Source of the DNA: Xanthomonas vesicatoria ATCC 35937
GTDB taxonomy: Bacteria; Pseudomonadota; Gammaproteobacteria; Xanthomonadales; Xanthomonadaceae
NCBI RefSeq assembly: GCF_001908725.1
Contig: NZ_CP018726.1
Coordinates: forward strand, 124,001 to 188,000
DNA length: 64,000 nt
Reading direction: 5' to 3'
In this document: piece after piece, positions 33,984 to 41,827 of the stretch
How the letters are laid out: every line of letters begins with the position of its first letter
Position numbering within the stretch: the stretch's first letter is position 1
Notes under the pieces: model-generated
What the model saw: only the letters and a program-made list of their open reading frames with translations
Told to the model about the DNA's origin: nothing
Databases searched by the model: none
Made by a program: the position numbers and the translations under genes

Positions 33984-36900
33984 TCATTGGTCGCCCCGCG
34001 CCGCGCGCAATCCACGTCGCCGCACCAGATAGAACGCTGCGGGAATCACCACCATAGAGAGCACCGGTGCGGTGAGCATGCCACCCAGCATCGGCGCGGC
34101 GATACGTTGCATGACCTCCGAGCCGGCACCGGCACCAACGAACAGCGGAAACAACCCGGCCAGGATGACGGCTACCGTCATCGCCTTCGGGCGCACCCGC
34201 TGCACGGCACCTTCGTAGATAGCCTCTTGCAGGGTAGACACATCTTCCGGCGCACCGCTGGCCAAGCGCTGCTCCCAAGCATGACGCAGGTACAGCAACA
34301 TGATGACGCCGAACTCAGCCGCAACGCCACCCAGGGCGATGAATCCGATCATGCTGGCTACCGAAATCGCATGGCCCAGCCCCCAGATCAACCAGAAACC
34401 GCCCACCAACGCCAAGGGCAAGCTGAGCAGGATGATGGATACATCGCTGAGCCGGCGAAACACCATCCAGATGACCAGGAAGATGATCGCCAACGCCGCG
34501 GGCACCACCCATTGCAGGCGTGCCAATGCCCGTTGCAGATACTCGTACTGCCCCGACCAGGCCAGACCATAGCCGGCAGGCAAACTCACCTGGGTCTGCA
34601 TCGCGGCTTGCAGGTCCTGGACCACCGGTCCTAAGTCGCGATCGGCCACATCGACGTAGATGTAGCCCACCAACCGGCCGTTATCGCTCTTGAGCATCGG
34701 CGGGCCTGGGCTGATTGACAGCTCCGCCACCTGGCTCAAGGTCAGTTGCACACCGCCTGGCGCGATCAGCGGCAGATCCTGCAAGGCCTGCAATGAGTCG
34801 CGCTGGCCACGGGGGTAGCGCAAGACGATGGGATAGCGCTCGCGCCCCTCGATCGTTTCCCCGATTGGATCGCCGCCAACGACCGTGGCAATCAGTTGCT
34901 GGAGTTGGCCTTGAGTGAATCCATAACGCGCAGCGATTTCCGGGCGCACCTGTACATCGACATAGCGCCCGCCGGTGACGCGTTCGGCCAGTGCCGAACT
35001 CACGCCGGGCACAGTCTTGGCCACCTGCTCGATCTGCTGGCTCAGGCGCTCGATCTGCTCCACATCTGGTCCGGAGACCTTGATCCCAATCGGGCTTTTG
35101 ATGCCGGTGGCCAACATATCGATGCGATTGCGAATGGGCGGTACCCATAGATTGGTTAGACCGGGAATCTTGACCGCGGCGTCCAACTCTTGGCGTAGCT
35201 TCTGAAGGGTCATGCCCGGGCGCCATTGATCCCGCGGCTTGAAGGTCACGGTGGTCTCAAACATTTCCATAGGTGCCGGATCGGTCGCACTTTCGGCACG
35301 GCCGGCCTTGCCGAACACGTGCTCGACCTCCGGTACGGTTTTGATCATCCGTCCTGAGAGCTGAAGCAACTGGCGCGCCTTGTCGGCTGACAGGCCTGGC
35401 AACGCAGTGGGCATGTACAGCAGGCTGCCTTCTTCCAAGGGTGGCATGAATTCACTGCCCAACCGGCTAAAGGGGATCAAGGTGAGCACCAGCAGCAGGC
35501 CACTGAGCAGCAAGGTGACACCGGGATGTTTGAGGACCCACAACAGAATGGGCCGGTATCCGGCGATCAGGATGCGATTTATGGGGTTCTGTTGTTCCGG
35601 CCGGATGTGGCCGCGGATCAGGTAGCCCATCAGCACGGGGATCAAGGTCACCGACAACCCTGCTGCGGCGGCCATCGCGTAGGTCTTGGTGTAGGCCAAG
35701 GGCGAGAATAAACGCCCTTCCTGCGCCTGCAGGGCAAAAACCGGCATGAAGGATAGGGTGATGACCAGCAAGCTCGCGAACAGGGCCGGTCCGACCTCGG
35801 CCGCCGAGCGGGCCATCAACTGCCAGCGCTCCTCACCCTGGGGTTCCCGACCGTGCTCCTCCCGCCAGTGCTCCAGATGCTTGTGTGCATTTTCGATCAT
35901 CACCACCGCTGCATCGACCATCGCACCAATGGCGATGGCGATGCCTCCTAACGACAGCAAGTTGGCGGAGATCCCCTGGGCGTGCATCACGATGAAGGCC
36001 GCTAGGATACCCAAGGGTAGGGTGATGACGGCCACCAACGCCGAGCGTAGGTGCCACAGGAACAGCAGGCATACCAGCGCTACGACCAGGAACTCTTCAC
36101 CAAGCTTATGGGTGAGGTTGCGTACCGCATCCTGGATTAGCTCGGAGCGGTCGTACACCGCCACCACTTCCACGCCTTCGGGCAAGCTGGATTGCAACGC
36201 CTGCAGTCGCGCTTTGACGTTCCGAATGGCCCCCAAGGCATCCTTGCCGGTCCGCAGGACGATCACGCCGCCGGCCACCTCACCTTGACCATCCAACTCT
36301 GCGATACCACGACGGAAGACCGGCCCGCGACTGATCGTGGCCACCTCGCCGAGCAAGACGGGGATGCCGTCGTTGCCGGTTACCGGCACCTGTTCGAACG
36401 CCTCCTGTGTGCGCAGGTAGCCTTCGCTACGCACCATCAGTTCGGCTTCGCCTTGTTCGATCACGGAGCCCCCGGTAGCGCCGTTGGCCGCATCCACCGC
36501 CTCGATGAGCTCGGCCACCGTCAGTCCACGGGCCGCCAACGCCTGCGGATCCGGCTGGATCTGCCAGGCGCGCACCGCACCGCCCACACTGGCTACTTCA
36601 GCCACGTCCGGCACGGTTTTTAGCTCATAACGAAGAAACCAGTCCTGCAACGCACGCAGCTGCCCCACATCACGTTGACCGGTCCGATCCACCAAGGCGT
36701 ACTGGTAGATCCAGCCCAGCCCTGTCGCATCAGGACCCAGCGCCGGATTCACATTCGGCGGAAGTCGATCGCGCACCTGGCTCAAGTACTCGAGCACTCG
36801 AGAGCGAGCCCAGTACAGATCAGTGGCATCGTCAAACAGGATGTAGACGAACGAATCACCGAAGAAGGAGAAGCCGCGTACCGCTTTCACGCCCGGCACG

Positions 36901-37124
36901 GACAACATCGTGGTGGCCAACGGGTAGGTGACTTGGTCTTCGATGATACGCGGGGTTTGCCCAGCCCATTGCGTGCGGATGATGACTTGGGTATCCGACA
37001 GGTCCGGCAGCGCATCCAGCGGCGTGTTCTTTATCGACCAGATGCCGACCACCGCCAGCAGCGCGGCGGCAACCAGCACCAGCACGCGATTGGCGATGCA
37101 AGCATGGATCAGGCGCGCGATCAT
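33984..37124 (-). CDS. cusA: CusA-type Cu(I)/Ag(I) RND efflux pump
   Basis: 1046 residues from ATG 37124 (ATGA overlap with cusB; the longer frame to 37169 is inside cusB). The signature AIGAMVDAAVVMIENAHKHLE in TM4 marks the monovalent Cu/Ag branch of HME-RND pumps. Twelve transmembrane segments and two periplasmic loops are present, and the C-terminus is complete. It exports Cu(I)/Ag(I) with CusB and CusC. Confidence 0.96.
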   Translation of the reverse strand: MIARLIHACIANRVLVLVAAALLAVVGIWSIKNTPLDALPDLSDTQVIIRTQWAGQTPRIIEDQVTYPLATTMLSVPGVKAVRGFSFFGDSFVYILFDDATDLYWARSRVLEYLSQVRDRLPPNVNPALGPDATGLGWIYQYALVDRTGQRDVGQLRALQDWFLRYELKTVPDVAEVASVGGAVRAWQIQPDPQALAARGLTVAELIEAVDAANGATGGSVIEQGEAELMVRSEGYLRTQEAFEQVPVTGNDGIPVLLGEVATISRGPVFRRGIAELDGQGEVAGGVIVLRTGKDALGAIRNVKARLQALQSSLPEGVEVVAVYDRSELIQDAVRNLTHKLGEEFLVVALVCLLFLWHLRSALVAVITLPLGILAAFIVMHAQGISANLLSLGGIAIAIGAMVDAAVVMIENAHKHLEHWREEHGREPQGEERWQLMARSAAEVGPALFASLLVITLSFMPVFALQAQEGRLFSPLAYTKTYAMAAAAGLSVTLIPVLMGYLIRGHIRPEQQNPINRILIAGYRPILLWVLKHPGVTLLLSGLLLVLTLIPFSRLGSEFMPPLEEGSLLYMPTALPGLSADKARQLLQLSGRMIKTVPEVEHVFGKAGRAESATDPAPMEMFETTVTFKPRDQWRPGMTLQKLRQELDAAVKIPGLTNLWVPPIRNRIDMLATGIKSPIGIKVSGPDVEQIERLSQQIEQVAKTVPGVSSALAERVTGGRYVDVQVRPEIAARYGFTQGQLQQLIATVVGGDPIGETIEGRERYPIVLRYPRGQRDSLQALQDLPLIAPGGVQLTLSQVAELSISPGPPMLKSDNGRLVGYIYVDVADRDLGPVVQDLQAAMQTQVSLPAGYGLAWSGQYEYLQRALARLQWVVPAALAIIFLVIWMVFRRLSDVSIILLSLPLALVGGFWLIWGLGHAISVASMIGFIALGGVAAEFGVIMLLYLRHAWEQRLASGAPEDVSTLQEAIYEGAVQRVRPKAMTVAVILAGLFPLFVGAGAGSEVMQRIAAPMLGGMLTAPVLSMVVIPAAFYLVRRRGLRAARGDQ

Positions 37125-38635
37125 GGCGTGCCCTCCATCGCTTCGGACATGACGGCGCTTGCCTGGCAATCAGCGGCTGCGGCGGAGCCGAACTTGGGTA
37201 CCAACTGCATATCCATGAACGGTGACTTGCCCGGCTTGTCGAAATGCTTCTCCGGCACCATCGGGTCATACCAGTACTGCACCGGGCAGCGTGGCGGCGT
37301 GGAGGTGGAGGTCTCTGGCGCGACAGGCGCAGGCTGTCTGGACGGTGACGGCACGACAGTGCGTGCGTCGTGCCCGGCGTCATGGCGCTCGTGTACACCT
37401 GATGCGCTGGCAGGGCTTGTAGGTTGTGCAGCGCCCAGGCGCTCCAACGCACCGGAGAGATTGGCTTCAGAGTCGAGCAGGAACTGACCCGAGACCACCA
37501 CGCGTTCACCACCGGCCAAGCCTGCCACGATCTGCGTGCGCCCTTGCACGCTACGTCCGGCACTCACCCGCACTGGCCGGAAGCTCCCGTCCGGATCCTG
37601 CACGATGACCCGGCTGTCCCGCCCGGTGGCAATCAGCGCCTCCGTGGGAACGACTGGCAAGGCCTGCTCGGCATCGGGCTGCACCAGAACCTCGGCGAAC
37701 ATGCCCGGCACCAGCCGACGCTGCGGGTTGCGCAGCACAATTCGCGCCCGCTGCGTGCGACTAGCCATGTCGACCTGGGGAAGCAACGCCTGGATCTGTC
37801 CGCCAAAGCGCTCTGCCGGCCATGCATTGACCGTGGCCTGCACTGAGGTCCCCAGCCGCAAGGTGCCCAGCGCTGCCTGGGGCACCGAGGCCTCCAGCCA
37901 CAGCGTGTCCAGCCCATTGATCTTGAACAGTGGCGTACCGGGTATCACCGTCTGCCCCTCGCGTGCCAGGATCTCGGTCACGACACCACTGTGGTCTGCG
38001 CCAAGCACGACGCCACTTCTGGCCGAGGCGCCAGAAGGAACACCCAACGAACGCAACCGTTGTTGCGCGGCACCCTGTAGCTCACGCGCGCTCGCGGACT
38101 GAGCTTGGCTCAGGGTATGTGCTTCGGCGATGGCCGCGTTCCATGCCGGGGCCTGCACGGTGGCCAGCGCTTGACCACGACGAACCTCGGTAAACGGCGC
38201 CTTTACCTGCACGTGGGTGATCAAGCCTTCCGTGCGCGCACTGACCACGGTTTCCTGGGTCAGATCCCACGTCAGTGTGCCCGGCACGCGTACAGCAGTC
38301 CCTAGTGACTCTACCGTCACTTCCTGAGTGCGTATGCCCACGTTCTGCTGCAGGCGCGGATCGATCTGCGTTCCGCCGCCCATGGCCTCATCTGCGTATT
38401 TGGGCAGCAACTTCATATCCATGAACGGAGATTTGCCCGGCTTGTCGAATCGCTGCTCCGGCGCCATGGGGTCGTACCAGTACAACACCTTGCGCGCTTG
38501 ACCTGCGCCGCTCGTGCCGGTGGGCGGGGTGGAATCAGAGGTTCGAGTCATCCAGGCGTAGCCGCTGGCAAAGCCGAGCGCCAGCAACCCGAGGGCCACG
38601 GCGAGCTGTGTGAGACGCGTCTTGGTCGGGGTCAT
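37121..38635 (-). CDS. cusB: CusB adaptor with two heavy-metal-binding domains
   Basis: 504 residues with a signal-anchor start. A heavy-metal-binding domain near residues 50-80 (YWYDPMAPEQRFDKPGKSPF, MDMKLLPKY) is followed by the hairpin, lipoyl and beta-barrel domains of an RND adaptor. A second, nearly identical metal domain lies near 455-490 (YWYDPMVPEKHFDKPGKSPF, MDMQLVPKF). Most CusB proteins have only the N-terminal one. It delivers Cu/Ag to CusA. Both neighbours overlap it by 4 bp. Confidence 0.94.
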   Translation of the reverse strand: MTPTKTRLTQLAVALGLLALGFASGYAWMTRTSDSTPPTGTSGAGQARKVLYWYDPMAPEQRFDKPGKSPFMDMKLLPKYADEAMGGGTQIDPRLQQNVGIRTQEVTVESLGTAVRVPGTLTWDLTQETVVSARTEGLITHVQVKAPFTEVRRGQALATVQAPAWNAAIAEAHTLSQAQSASARELQGAAQQRLRSLGVPSGASARSGVVLGADHSGVVTEILAREGQTVIPGTPLFKINGLDTLWLEASVPQAALGTLRLGTSVQATVNAWPAERFGGQIQALLPQVDMASRTQRARIVLRNPQRRLVPGMFAEVLVQPDAEQALPVVPTEALIATGRDSRVIVQDPDGSFRPVRVSAGRSVQGRTQIVAGLAGGERVVVSGQFLLDSEANLSGALERLGAAQPTSPASASGVHERHDAGHDARTVVPSPSRQPAPVAPETSTSTPPRCPVQYWYDPMVPEKHFDKPGKSPFMDMQLVPKFGSAAAADCQASAVMSEAMEGTP

Positions 38636-39936
38636 GGCGTGTTCTCCTCATGGGGCAGCAGATAGGCCAGTGCCGCCCAGGCACGGCCCTGTTCGCCCAG
38701 CAGACGGGCGTTCTCCAGTTGCAATTCGATCTCATCGCGCCGCGCTTCCAGCCACGGCTGCAGGTCGGCACCGGCGCCGTAGGCGGCCAACGCCGTGCGT
38801 GCGCGATCGCGCGCCAAAGGCAGGCTCTGCGTGTTCTGACGCTCCAACTGGCCGGTTAACCCGCGCCATCGCGCCATCGCGCGTTGCACCGACTCGGCTT
38901 GGATGCGCCGGGCCTCATCGCGCTCTGCGGACACCGCCTCCAGCTCAGCCCGTCGTGCCACGATGCCTCGTGCTTGGCGGTTCTTCTGGAACAGCGGCAG
39001 GCCCACGCCCACTTCCACCATGAGCATGTCGCTGCGCGCCATGCCGTCGAGTGCGCGCTCGCGACGTCCGTAGGTGAGCTCCACACTCCAATCCGGGCGG
39101 GTTTCGGCCACGGCCGCATCCACCTGGGCCTGGGCTAAGCTCTGGCGTGCCTCCCAGCCCAGTAGTGGTGTGTGCTGGTCCAGGTTGGCCAGCAGTTGGG
39201 TGGGCTCCAATGGCAACTGCGAAAAATCCGGCGCCGTACCACTGGCCAAGATCGCCTCTGGTGCAATACCCAACCACCGCGCCAGGCCGGCCTGCGCCGC
39301 GGCGTGCTCCGCATGTACCTGCTCCAGGCGATTGTCCAACTGCAGTAGGACGGCCTGGGCGGCAAGCACGTCACTGGCCCCGGCCGTGCCACCTGCCAAG
39401 CGAGCACGCGCCGCACGCTCGGCTATGCGCGCCGGCTCGCGCAAACCTTCCAACGCATCTACGGCTTGCTGCGTACTCCACAGCTCGATCCAGGCCTGCG
39501 CGGCCGCTTGGACCACCATCTGCTGTTCGACCATCGACAGTGAGCGCGCTTGTGCCAGCGTCGCTTGAGCCAGCGCTTGCTCGGCACGTCGTTTCGCACG
39601 GGCAGGAAACTCCTGCATCAGCCCGACTTGCTGGGTGGTCATCTCGTCTGCCCGCAGACTGAAGGCATCGGGTCCGCTGACGGGCCAGTTCGCCAGCCCC
39701 ACGATCAGACGTGGATCGGGCAACGCGCCGGCACGCGCGGCTTCTTCGGTACTTGCATCGATCTGGGATCGGCGCACCTGCAGGGTAGGGGCGTTAGCAA
39801 GCGCTTGTTGTAGTGCTTCGGGATAGCTGATCGGGATAGCGGGCGGTGCCGCCACCACAGGACCACTGAGCGCCAGGGCAAACAACACCCCGCACGCCAT
39901 CCTGCGTCTTGCACGCAGAAAGAAGGACATCTCCAT
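38632..39936 (-). CDS. cusC: CusC-like outer-membrane efflux protein
   Basis: 434 residues, TolC family, with two repeats of long helices (RAGALPDPRLIVGLANWPVSG is typical of the CusC/CzcC heavy-metal subgroup). The signal peptide ends PVVAAP. The start is ATG 39936 or 39930. The stop overlaps cusB, giving the tightly coupled order cusC-cusB-cusA. Confidence 0.92.
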   Translation of the reverse strand: MEMSFFLRARRRMACGVLFALALSGPVVAAPPAIPISYPEALQQALANAPTLQVRRSQIDASTEEAARAGALPDPRLIVGLANWPVSGPDAFSLRADEMTTQQVGLMQEFPARAKRRAEQALAQATLAQARSLSMVEQQMVVQAAAQAWIELWSTQQAVDALEGLREPARIAERAARARLAGGTAGASDVLAAQAVLLQLDNRLEQVHAEHAAAQAGLARWLGIAPEAILASGTAPDFSQLPLEPTQLLANLDQHTPLLGWEARQSLAQAQVDAAVAETRPDWSVELTYGRRERALDGMARSDMLMVEVGVGLPLFQKNRQARGIVARRAELEAVSAERDEARRIQAESVQRAMARWRGLTGQLERQNTQSLPLARDRARTALAAYGAGADLQPWLEARRDEIELQLENARLLGEQGRAWAALAYLLPHEENTP

Positions 39937-40009
39937 AAGACCTCCGGACAAACGACAACGAGCGTGCTGCAACACAAGCAGCACGAGCACGGGTCAATCC
40001 AGGAGGGGC

Positions 40010-40405: not shown

Positions 40406-40934
40406 GACAGCTCCCGCACGCCCGAAGCAGCGCCTGCGGACGCTGGGCAGATCAGGGCAGGGGACGTGCGAGCTCTCATGATTGCCAGTCTAGCCCTCTT
40501 GGGGCCGACTGGCATTGATCACGATCAAGCCATCGCGCGGACTCAGCGGTGGCATCCGCCGCAGCAGGGGGATGCGGCCGGGGCGGCTGGCGTGTCGGCC
40601 TCAGAAGGGAGCACGGCGGCGATCACATACCGGAATTGACCGAGGAGGAGAAGGATCGGCAGACCCGCGAGGGTTTGGCCGACGTCGACGCTGGACGGAC
40701 GATCCCGCACTAGGAACTACTGCAATGGGTCAGGCGACTGTCGGAGCCTTCTTGTTGAGGCTTTCCGTTGGGTCAGGAGCGTGGAAACTCTTGAATCCAA
40801 TATTCAAGAAGGGCACGCGTGCCTGAGCAGTACTTCCGCAATGCCTCTGTCACGCGACTTCTGGTTCGATCAAGCCTAGCTCTGTAATCCACGAACTGTT
40901 GACGTCGAGGGGTGTTTCCTCGTTGAATCATGGC
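40406..40934. other. Stretch without an intact gene
   Basis: Between the cus operon and the second Tn3-type end I find only the antitoxin remnant and a small palindrome (CTTGAAT-CCA-ATATTCAAG region near 40790). The cus promoter should lie at its left end, but no clear operator is seen. Confidence 0.5.
40630..40758 (+). pseudogene. Antitoxin remnant with internal stop
   Basis: The frame PELTEEEKDRQTREGLADVD-AGRTIPH-stop-ELLQWVRRLSEPSC resembles the tail of small RHH/Phd-like antitoxins (a 'GL.dv.aGR.ipHeel..W' pattern). A TAG at 40711-40713 interrupts it. No start codon with ribosome-binding site and no toxin gene is visible. It is a decayed remnant. Confidence 0.4.
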
Positions 40935-40981
40935 GATAGAGCCGATTCGGCTGTTTTTCTCACGAATCCCTGCCGACCCTC
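40935..40981 (-). repeat. Second Tn3-type terminal repeat (internal)
   Basis: Reading inward from 40981 the strand is GAGGGTCGGCAGGGATTCGT followed by GAGAAAAACAGCC. The first 15 bases match the outer repeats at 1012 and 41884, then it diverges (ATTCGTGAG instead of ATCGTTACG). It faces the same way as the right end at 41884, so it may be the end of a related, older element. Confidence 0.65.
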
Positions 40982-41010
40982 AAGTAGAAGCATTTTTCCG
41001 TCGTTGACGG

Positions 41011-41113
41011 TGGTGCCCCTGGTCGGAATCGAACCGACGTGTACGCGCTTATCTGGCGCGTGCTCTCACCGGGGTATAAGGCCGGCCCTCTGACCAACAT
41101 GAGCAACAGGGGC
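41011..41113 (-). tRNA. tRNA-like gene with a 25-nt insertion (Ile-GAU-like)
   Basis: The 5' acceptor strand GCCCCTG (41113-41107) pairs with CAGGGGC before an encoded ACCA. The T-arm GTCGG-TTCGATT-CCGAC is canonical. A D-arm (GCTC ... GGTCA GAG) is followed by 25 extra nucleotides bounded by GAG repeats, including a CCGG-CCTTATACC-CCGG hairpin. An anticodon-like arm CGCGC-CAGATAA-GCGCG follows. Without the insert a 78-nt cloverleaf forms with anticodon GAT; the residue before the anticodon is A, not the usual T33. Whether it is functional is unclear. Confidence 0.6.
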
Positions 41114-41205
41114 GTGATCGATCGATGCGATCACGCCGGTATTCGAGGGTCGAGCTGGCTCAGGCGGTTCATGGGGCAAGCATACCGGGGATGGACGCTA
41201 TGCCG

Positions 41206-41757
41206 CTATCCCCGGGCGCGGCGGTAGGAGTGGGCCCACGCCGGAGCAGAGATCCGGCCGGTCGCCACCAGCCAGGCCATCCGCAAGGCCTGCGCGTCCA
41301 CCAACGCATGGTGGCGCCTGGCCCTATGTTCCGGATGGGCTGCGAACCAGTCCTCGACCAGCAGCCCAGGAAGGCCTTCCTTCGACATGCATGTCATGAC
41401 CGGGGCCGGCCGGGGTCCGCATGCGGCAACCTGGTCATCGGGTAGCTCAAAACCATCCAGTGCATACCGCAGCAGCTGGAGATCGTTCGGGAAATCCGCC
41501 ATCACCGCCAGCGCGTCGGTCTCGCTGAGGAAGGCGCGCAGCTCGGTAGTCAGGACGGCATCCGGCAGGGCTGCGTCGCCGCGGTCGAGCAGCGGGTAGA
41601 CGCTCTGACGAACGAAGTCGGTGGGAGCATCGGGCAGGCTGGCTCGCTCAGCGTAGAAAAGGCGGTCTCCATCCTCGTTCACCAGCGCCAGGCTCACCAG
41701 CTCGCTGCCGGTTACATCGGCCCACTCGGTGTCCAAGAAGTAGTACGTGGTGGCCAT
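41206..41757 (-). CDS. DEDDh-type 3'-5' exonuclease-like protein
   Basis: 183 residues from ATG 41757. The RNase H-like exonuclease fold is suggested by YYFLDTEWADV (DxE), the aspartate in AVMADFPNDLQLL and the terminal HHALVDAQALRMAW (H and D). It is similar in size to small exoribonuclease/DNA polymerase epsilon-like passengers. It lies between two Tn3-type ends beside the tRNA-like gene and appears to be cargo; a role in RNA or DNA processing is inferred. Confidence 0.78.
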   Translation of the reverse strand: MATTYYFLDTEWADVTGSELVSLALVNEDGDRLFYAERASLPDAPTDFVRQSVYPLLDRGDAALPDAVLTTELRAFLSETDALAVMADFPNDLQLLRYALDGFELPDDQVAACGPRPAPVMTCMSKEGLPGLLVEDWFAAHPEHRARRHHALVDAQALRMAWLVATGRISAPAWAHSYRRARG

Positions 41758-41827
41758 AGTTGAATGGTGCCACGGCCTCCTGGGGAGGGCCGAGCCTGGA
41801 AGTGCGCCGAGGGTAGAATTCACCGAT

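Follow-up and report, generated by a model that had tools for sequence, protein, structure and literature searches.

The window analysed here, a 64,000-nt stretch of Xanthomonas vesicatoria ATCC 35937 (contig NZ_CP018726.1, positions 124,001 to 188,000), carries a putative two-anticodon tRNA-Ile gene of 103 nt, CCA included, on its minus strand (41113 to 41011). The contig has 192,558 bases, and the nearest named relatives of this region are Xanthomonas plasmids. Read from its 5' end, the gene consists of an acceptor strand, a D strand, a UAU hairpin, a GAU hairpin, a T arm, A73 and CCA (coordinates in Table 1). An earlier note on this DNA had described a tRNA-like gene with two candidate anticodon arms, an intact acceptor, T-arm and CCA, a GAU arm with A at position 33, and an insert forming its own hairpin with TAT in the loop. 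All of these are present, namely a 7-bp acceptor, a 5-bp T-arm and an encoded CCA on the minus strand, the GAU arm (CGCGC-CAGATAA-GCGCG) and a UAU hairpin whose loop, CTTATAC, reads U33-UAU-A37, and the pair of arms proves to be a conserved feature of a family. On covariance-model scoring of the full stretch, proposed as a check by the same note, the Rfam tRNA model (RF00005) matches 41113-41014 with 43.1 bits (cut-off 29; E 8.1e-6 over the whole window), 33 nt being skipped. ARAGORN calls only the 3' part of the gene (41011-41083), as tRNA-Ile(GAT). The z-score of the RNA fold is -2.9.

Similar DNA was found in 43 plasmid records, all from Xanthomonas (10 of them identical across the 141-nt query), and a BLAST match in 39 of 297 genomes of the taxonomic family, some of the weak matches being only the T-arm of other tRNAs (L061, L062). 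The window allele, which has GAGG before the UAU arm, is shared by ten plasmid records and two Stenotrophomonas genomes; a second member, 93 nt long (74% identity), lies on the host chromosome. Aligned relatives split into forms of 102-103 nt and 92-94 nt; ARAGORN mostly reads the 93-nt form as a class II tRNA-Ile with anticodon TAT, and CAGATAA recurs as the loop of its variable arm. When 84,980 genomes, one for each bacterial or archaeal species, were scanned with a pattern requiring the loop CAGATAAGC, 96 stretches were obtained, 51 of which passed a test of the acceptor and T-stem. The cellular carriers belong to Lysobacterales, Microbulbifer, Marinobacter and Alphaproteobacteria, and the carriers among metagenome-assembled genomes (MAGs) to Planctomycetota, Nitrospirales, Obscuribacterales, Chloracidobacterium and others. 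Of the viral stretches listed, 71 of 120 passed the same test, at least one of which (L145) looks false. A stricter parse, requiring at least three of five pairs in each arm stem, gave at least 169 distinct sequences from plasmids, bacterial genomes of several phyla, and phages. The family pattern forced U33 and UAU and assumed a 7/5 acceptor/T branch, and the viral scan, like the UAU-fixed, GAU-fixed and both-arms-free scans described below, is a sample of at least 120 stretches that gives no measure of abundance. Members in eight loci score 52-70 bits with the Rfam tRNA model, and ARAGORN either misses family genes or reports them as tRNA-Ile(tat), as tRNA-Ile(gat), as another isotype or as undetermined.

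Both arms are found in five named phages (L601-L605), three of which have the gene annotated as tRNA-Ile (Vibrio phage vB_ValC_WD615, Synechococcus phage SynMITS9220M01 and Acinetobacter phage vB_AbaS_qsb1), the others being Klebsiella phages vB_KpnD_Opt-79 and KP13-26. Escherichia phages H42 and H43 gave equally good matches. In the Vibrio phage (L601, 395-575) the two-arm tRNA-Ile is followed directly by a second annotated tRNA-Ile with a GAT loop. A relative outside the 169 sequences (L057, 1506-1597) has CAU in place of UAU, as read by eye from the loop, and is called tRNA-SeC by ARAGORN; if this CAU is of the Ile2 type, it would imply reading of AUA as well. Two degenerate copies, in a genome (L048) and a Xanthomonas plasmid (L068), are recognisable only in their 3' half and have lost the UAU loop. 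A literature search, incomplete in its coverage, returned no description of a tRNA family with two anticodon arms. The family is thus apparently widespread and previously undescribed, although priority is unproved because the coverage was partial.

Since the first scans demanded the GAU loop, a sample was taken with that arm free, in which only the D arm, TTATA and the T arm were fixed (116 of 120 stretches used). Its 116 matches contained 97 valid tRNAs, and 81 distinct sequences remained once 16 duplicates were dropped. Among these 81 class-II-sized UAU tRNAs, 68 have a GAT-centred 7-nt loop closed by at least three contiguous pairs, 72 have one with at least two pairs, and one more has it with a mismatch (73 in all); a blind pick of the longest 7-nt hairpin hits GAT in 61. 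By the same three-pair criterion a GAU hairpin is present in just one of 371 distinct Leu, Ser and Tyr class II tRNAs of the loci examined. All 81 have A73. Conversely, fixing GAU without constraining the first arm (109 of 120 stretches used) gave 53 sequences that have tRNA ends; they contain 21 GAU hairpins, 18 of them accompanied by a UAU arm (15 TTATA, one in another register, one with C33, one with G37); the remaining three are two tRNA-Ile(GAU) with a large D-loop insert without UAU and one case of noise. Leaving both arms free (117 of 120 stretches used) produced no more than 27 tRNA-like sequences. Many of these are not real tRNAs, and the number is too low to carry weight; the six in which the D arm is followed by a UAU loop (L073, L290, L291, L292, L294, L449) all have a GAT loop.

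At the level of sequence, the UAU and GAU stems both covary. The first three GAU-stem pairs, counted from the loop, are formed in 169, 167 and 169 of the 169 sequences (shuffle means 137, 98 and 90), with five standard pair types at each, and pairs 4 and 5 in only 100 and 75. Pairs 2-5 of the UAU stem are formed in 164-169 sequences (shuffle means 85-123). The selection for at least three of five pairs partly builds in these near-perfect scores, but not the variety of pair types. The loop-closing pair of the UAU stem is mismatched in 56 of 169 (C-C in the window copy), so that many members have a 4-bp anticodon stem, a form described in parts of one account as common among bacterial tRNAs (PMC13092985). 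In the GAU loop, position 33 is A in 161 of 169, position 37 is A in 134 and position 38 is A in 157. Of the 169 sequences, 166 have A73 and 144 encode CCA; together with the conservation and covariation of both arms, this favours a chargeable tRNA. The tRNA-like gene with two arms put forward in the earlier note is supported, and its suggestion of a decoy, a processed tRNA or a regulatory RNA is less favoured. Kissing of the two loops (UUAU with the AUAA of CAGAUAA) was considered and rejected as a common function, because AUAA is absent from 39 of 169 GAU loops (for example CAGATTA and TAGATTG) in which GAU is kept.

The short forms (90-96 nt) have a class II fold, with UAU at the anticodon position and GAU in the variable arm. 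In 109 of 113 of them the 5' strand of the D-stem pairs over 4 bp with the strand before the UAU arm (fold A), and in only 12 does it form a 3-bp pairing with the strand before the GAU arm (L072 and L354, in which the start was wrongly parsed, are excluded from the D-stem table). Fold A places a long variable arm after the anticodon arm in the manner of class II, most clearly in the 90-96-nt relatives; the normal class II tRNA named in the earlier note as the alternative is thus partly realised in these relatives, with UAU as anticodon, although their variable arm retains the GAU loop, which normal class II tRNAs lack (1 of 371). In 49 of 113 short forms the GAU arm is followed by a linker AGGTY or CGGTT, which we take to resemble a class I variable loop.

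In the 52 long forms (L322 and L275 being excluded from the pair table), the same D-stem 5' strand is also complementary to a strand one nucleotide before the GAU arm (fold B). The strand pairs are GCTT/AAGC in 26, GCTA/AAGC in 9, GCTC/GAGC in 8, GCCG/AGGC in 3, GCTT/TAGC in 3, GCTG/CAGC in 2 and GCTA/GAGC in 1, so that pairs 10-25, 11-24 and 12-23 are possible in 52 of 52 and pair 13-22 in 36. A26 is found in 47 of 52, a 5-nt linker in 43, and A33 in the GAU loop in all 52. Fold B can thus be drawn as a class I tRNA-Ile(GAU) cloverleaf with the UAU hairpin within its D-loop. The fold A strand of the long forms is complementary at 11-24 in 51, at 12-23 in 52, at 13-22 in 42 and at 10-25 in 17. 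The median difference in evaluated energy between the two folds is 0.0 kcal/mol, and each is the lower one in 24 of 52 long forms (L322 was left out and one more sequence had no fold to compare). Because the D-stem 5' strand can pair before either arm, the long RNA may alternate between the folds. We infer that a class I tRNA-Ile(GAU) acquired a second arm, or that evolution ran in the opposite direction.

An anticodon must normally satisfy the ribosome and, for isoleucine, the synthetase too. U33 is required for the decoding turn, and A33 should hinder decoding; a UAU anticodon alone is expected to be poorly charged by isoleucyl-tRNA synthetase (IleRS) in most bacteria. The GAU loop has the bases recognised by IleRS but has A33, which suggests that the GAU arm is not read by the ribosome, and the UAU loop has U33 and A37; hence GAU would serve for charging and UAU for reading AUA. 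IleRS has its determinants in the discriminator and anticodon, and most bacterial IleRSs depend to some degree on t6A37, on which the passages of the source are not uniform (PMC9976931). Both arms, their conservation and covariation, A73 and the two possible D-stem pairings are there to be read in the genes. From them we infer charging by IleRS, decoding of AUA and a switch of fold. The reading preferred, at a probability of roughly one half (0.52), is that the gene encodes an accessory tRNA-Ile in which the two jobs of one anticodon are split over two arms. The UAU arm, with U33 and A37, would pair with the rare isoleucine codon AUA on the ribosome, and the GAU arm would be the identity tag by which IleRS recognises and charges the molecule, so that a plasmid or phage would gain an AUA-reading tRNA needing no lysidine synthetase (TilS). 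The long forms may switch between two folds, one of class I for charging, with GAU at the anticodon position, and one of class II for decoding, with UAU there. Taken as a whole, with one anticodon for the synthetase and the other for the ribosome, a flip of the long form by exchange of the 3' half of its D-stem, and reading of AUA by mobile elements without lysidine, the proposal is put forward tentatively, at less than even odds.

Several observations weigh against this division of labour. In every one of the 52 long forms, unconstrained energy minimisation finds a fold of lower energy than either A or B (in the window, -44.8 versus -35.4 and -35.8 kcal/mol for A and B), and since nearest-neighbour energies also ignore tertiary contacts, the fold switch remains a proposal. 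The window copy is without pair 10-25 of fold A, the GAGG before its UAU arm leaving a D-stem of 3 bp (GAGC, giving 4 bp, is found in most aligned close relatives). The short forms are without the fold B D-stem strand, and with their GAU arm in the variable region it is unexplained how this arm would reach the anticodon-binding domain of IleRS with CCA at the active site at the same time. Although t6A37 matters for most bacterial IleRSs, 35 of 169 GAU loops lack A at position 37, and the GAU hairpin is wholly absent from 8 of the 81 UAU tRNAs. The plasmid appears to have little need for an AUA reader: AUA makes up 7 of 134 isoleucine codons in nine window genes, and the neighbour gene has none. 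Both the host and 18 of 18 other genomes with a two-arm tRNA have TilS, and a role of the two-arm tRNA as sole AUA reader was rejected because all 19 genomes tested have it. Among 34 exoribonuclease-like open reading frames (ORFs) of the kind neighbouring the gene, 9 of 142 isoleucine codons are AUA, and supply of codons for the neighbouring gene was dropped as an explanation, no AUA enrichment being claimed. Judged from its sequence, an Ile2-type CAU tRNA is present at L005. No tRNA-Ile(GAU) gene was found in the host, nor was 16S rRNA, by a search that also missed 16S rRNA in 5 of 14 control genomes. tRNA-Ala(TGC) usually adjoins tRNA-Ile(GAU) and was likewise not among the host tRNAs scanned; the rRNA operons are probably missing from the sequence searched or were overlooked, and loss of tRNA-Ile(GAU) by the host, considered as a possibility, is not claimed.

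LeuRS is suited by a long variable arm together with A73, both of which the family has, and SerRS expects G73. The tRNA might accordingly be a class II UAU tRNA charged by LeuRS (or SerRS), with AUA read as another amino acid or the tRNA hardly used, and the GAU loop merely structural; the nematode nev-tRNA-Ile(UAU) takes only leucine in vitro, according to the portions of the account that describe it (PMC4300185). This is considered unlikely, given that 68 of 81 UAU tRNAs have the GAU-centred variable-arm loop versus 1 of 371 Leu, Ser and Tyr tRNAs, and that the long forms can pair as class I; A73 speaks against the SerRS variant.

Equally unlikely is a decoy or sensor, the GAU arm mimicking tRNA-Ile to bind a tRNA-targeting nuclease, a toxin or IleRS, with the neighbouring RNA enzymes in the same pathway of tRNA damage, repair or defence. 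A same-strand exoribonuclease-like gene in 37 of 79 cellular loci, an RtcB gene 72 nt upstream in L285, a metallophosphoesterase beside or near three copies, and a leader hairpin extending 1-4 nt into the tRNA, seen in 28 of 62 cellular and 0 of 125 viral copies, are in keeping with such a role. The exoribonuclease link was seen only in Lysobacterales, though, and the other neighbours occur once or a few times; many phage copies are situated amid ordinary tRNA genes, and retention of UAU would be unexplained.

That both arms have a 7-nt anticodon-like loop, and that fold B of the long forms corresponds to a class I tRNA-Ile(GAU), would also suit a single tRNA that reads all three isoleucine codons by refolding, with UAU for AUA and GAU for AUU and AUC. 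This is improbable, as A33 occupies 161 of 169 GAU loops (52 of 52 in the long forms) and fold B is impossible for the short forms. Still less probable is excision of the UAU hairpin as an insert from a mature tRNA-Ile(GAU). Removal of 25 nt between the GAG repeats does leave a complete class I cloverleaf, and ARAGORN calls the 3' part only; viral tRNA-Ile(GAU) genes with D-loop inserts without UAU (L434, L512) offer a parallel. Yet UAU is at the canonical position in the short forms, its stem covaries, it accompanies GAU where it was not required, and A33 would spoil GAU decoding; we know of no bacterial enzyme that removes such an insert. Large D-loop inserts without a UAU arm were seen in three tRNA-Ile(GAU) genes of viral contigs (L398, L434, L512). 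Chance, or a pseudogene of a class I tRNA-Ile, to which the one weakened D-stem of the window copy and the degenerate copies L048 and L068 might point, is scarcely credible; for the family it is refuted by the compensatory changes across 169 distinct sequences.

Compared with class I tRNA-Ile(GAU), the window copy is alike in the acceptor, the fold B D-stem (as a possible pairing), nt 26, the GAU arm, the 5-nt linker, the T arm and A73, and unlike in having A33 instead of U33 and a D-loop of 35 nt between the fold B strands, which holds the UAU hairpin. tRNA-Ile3(UAU) is a class I tRNA, and a Lactobacillus tRNA-Ile(UAU) has reportedly been described, as the title of a cited work has it. The window loop shares with tRNA-Ile3(UAU) the UAU anticodon for AUA with U33 and A37, but the two-arm family has an extra GAU arm and retains TilS, and thus does not replace tRNA-Ile2(CAU) and TilS, whereas tRNA-Ile3(UAU) replaces tRNA-Ile2 in Bifidobacterium, Mycoplasma and Neorickettsia, as stated in the relevant part of one report (PMC8450103). 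Allo-tRNAs, as far as the sections describing them go, have 8/4 or 9/3 branches and Ser or Ala identity elements, the allo-tRNA(UAU) of Edaphobacter being 8/4 (PMC7609411); frequent UAU, extra stems and a suspected link to mobile elements are common ground, but the window copy is 7/5 with A73. The nematode nev-tRNA-Ile(UAU) is likewise a class II tRNA with UAU, but is eukaryotic, with a Leu-like variable arm and charging with leucine in vitro, in the same portions of its account (PMC4300185). A GAU variable arm is not mentioned in those parts of the nematode (PMC4300185) and allo-tRNA (PMC7609411) accounts. The class II tRNAs for Leu, Ser and Tyr share the long variable arm and are without the GAU-centred loop (1 of 371); the first arm of the two-arm family has UAU rather than a Leu, Ser or Tyr anticodon.

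If the proposed split is true, it would be a natural way of uncoupling charging from decoding, would explain the gain of an AUA reader by mobile elements, and could guide the design of tRNAs whose codon can be chosen freely. How far identity can move away from the anticodon would become directly testable, with sequences available in named phages.

Table 1. Features of the two-anticodon tRNA-Ile gene and its upstream region (window coordinates)
Feature	Position	Strand	Remarks
Two-anticodon tRNA-Ile gene	41011..41113	-	103 nt with CCA
Acceptor stem, 5' strand	41107..41113	-	nt 1-7; Rfam tRNA model alignment
D-stem, 5' strand GCTC	41101..41104	-	complementary to two downstream strands
Fold A D-stem, 3' strand GAGG	41087..41090	-	3 bp in window copy
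UAU arm CCGGC-CTTATAC-CCCGG	41069..41085	-	anticodon UAU at 41076-41078; loop-closing pair C-C
Fold B D-stem, 3' strand GAGC	41062..41065	-	one nt ahead of GAU arm
GAU arm CGCGC-CAGATAA-GCGCG	41044..41060	-	GAU at 41051-41053; A at position 33
5-nt linker	41039..41043	-	class I variable-loop length
T arm	41022..41038	-	Rfam tRNA model alignment
Acceptor stem, 3' strand	41015..41021	-	discriminator A at 41014; CCA at 41011-41013
Leader hairpin GGCGTGATCG/CGATCACGCC	41111..41137	-	3' arm takes in tRNA nt 1-3
Upstream motif CGAATAYC	41138..41145	-	recurs in cellular copies
3'-5' exoribonuclease-like gene	41206..41823	-	Rv2179c-like, under Pfam cut-off; recurrent same-strand neighbour

The product of the exoribonuclease-like gene scores 18.7 bits against the Rv2179c-like family (Pfam cut-off 27), and its relatives are annotated as 3'-5' exoribonuclease. 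In the 37 of 79 cellular loci with such a gene (the sample repeats some genomes), the nearest copy always shares the strand of the tRNA (37 of 37), and in 36 it is no more than about 1 kb away; it lies upstream of long forms, except in L046 and L233, and downstream of short forms. The association was seen only in Lysobacterales, where Rudaea (L271) lies outside Lysobacteraceae, and more than one copy is sometimes present (L046, L059, L060, L209).

The motif GAATAY occurs within 60 nt upstream of 50 of 62 cellular copies, from several phyla, and of 10 of 125 viral copies. The count of 28 leader hairpins among the 62 cellular copies requires at least 7 perfect bp and an extension of 1-4 nt into the tRNA; a control placed 32 nt further upstream gave 0 of 62 cellular and 1 of 125 viral. 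The leader hairpin would compete with the acceptor stem, and motif and hairpin may mark regulated processing or a site used by a mobile element. A promoter scan of 40900-41300 returned no promoter-like site and one terminator-like site, on the plus strand. Among the phage copies listed, many come after another tRNA, amid ordinary tRNA genes.

A Pfam scan of 50 chosen neighbour ORFs, one of them exoribonuclease-like, found no family in more than three, metallophosphoesterase being the one found in three. Metallophosphoesterase genes lie beside or near the tRNA in L058, L261 and L271, the RtcB RNA ligase gene (L285, 2432-3712) 72 nt upstream of it in a Micavibrio MAG, a patatin-like gene beside it in L047, and a TatD nuclease gene in L192. 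Downstream of the tRNA in the window are three ORFs on the minus strand (33984-39990); the corresponding place in plasmid pLM159.1 carries an annotated heavy-metal efflux set of the TolC/adaptor/CusA type.
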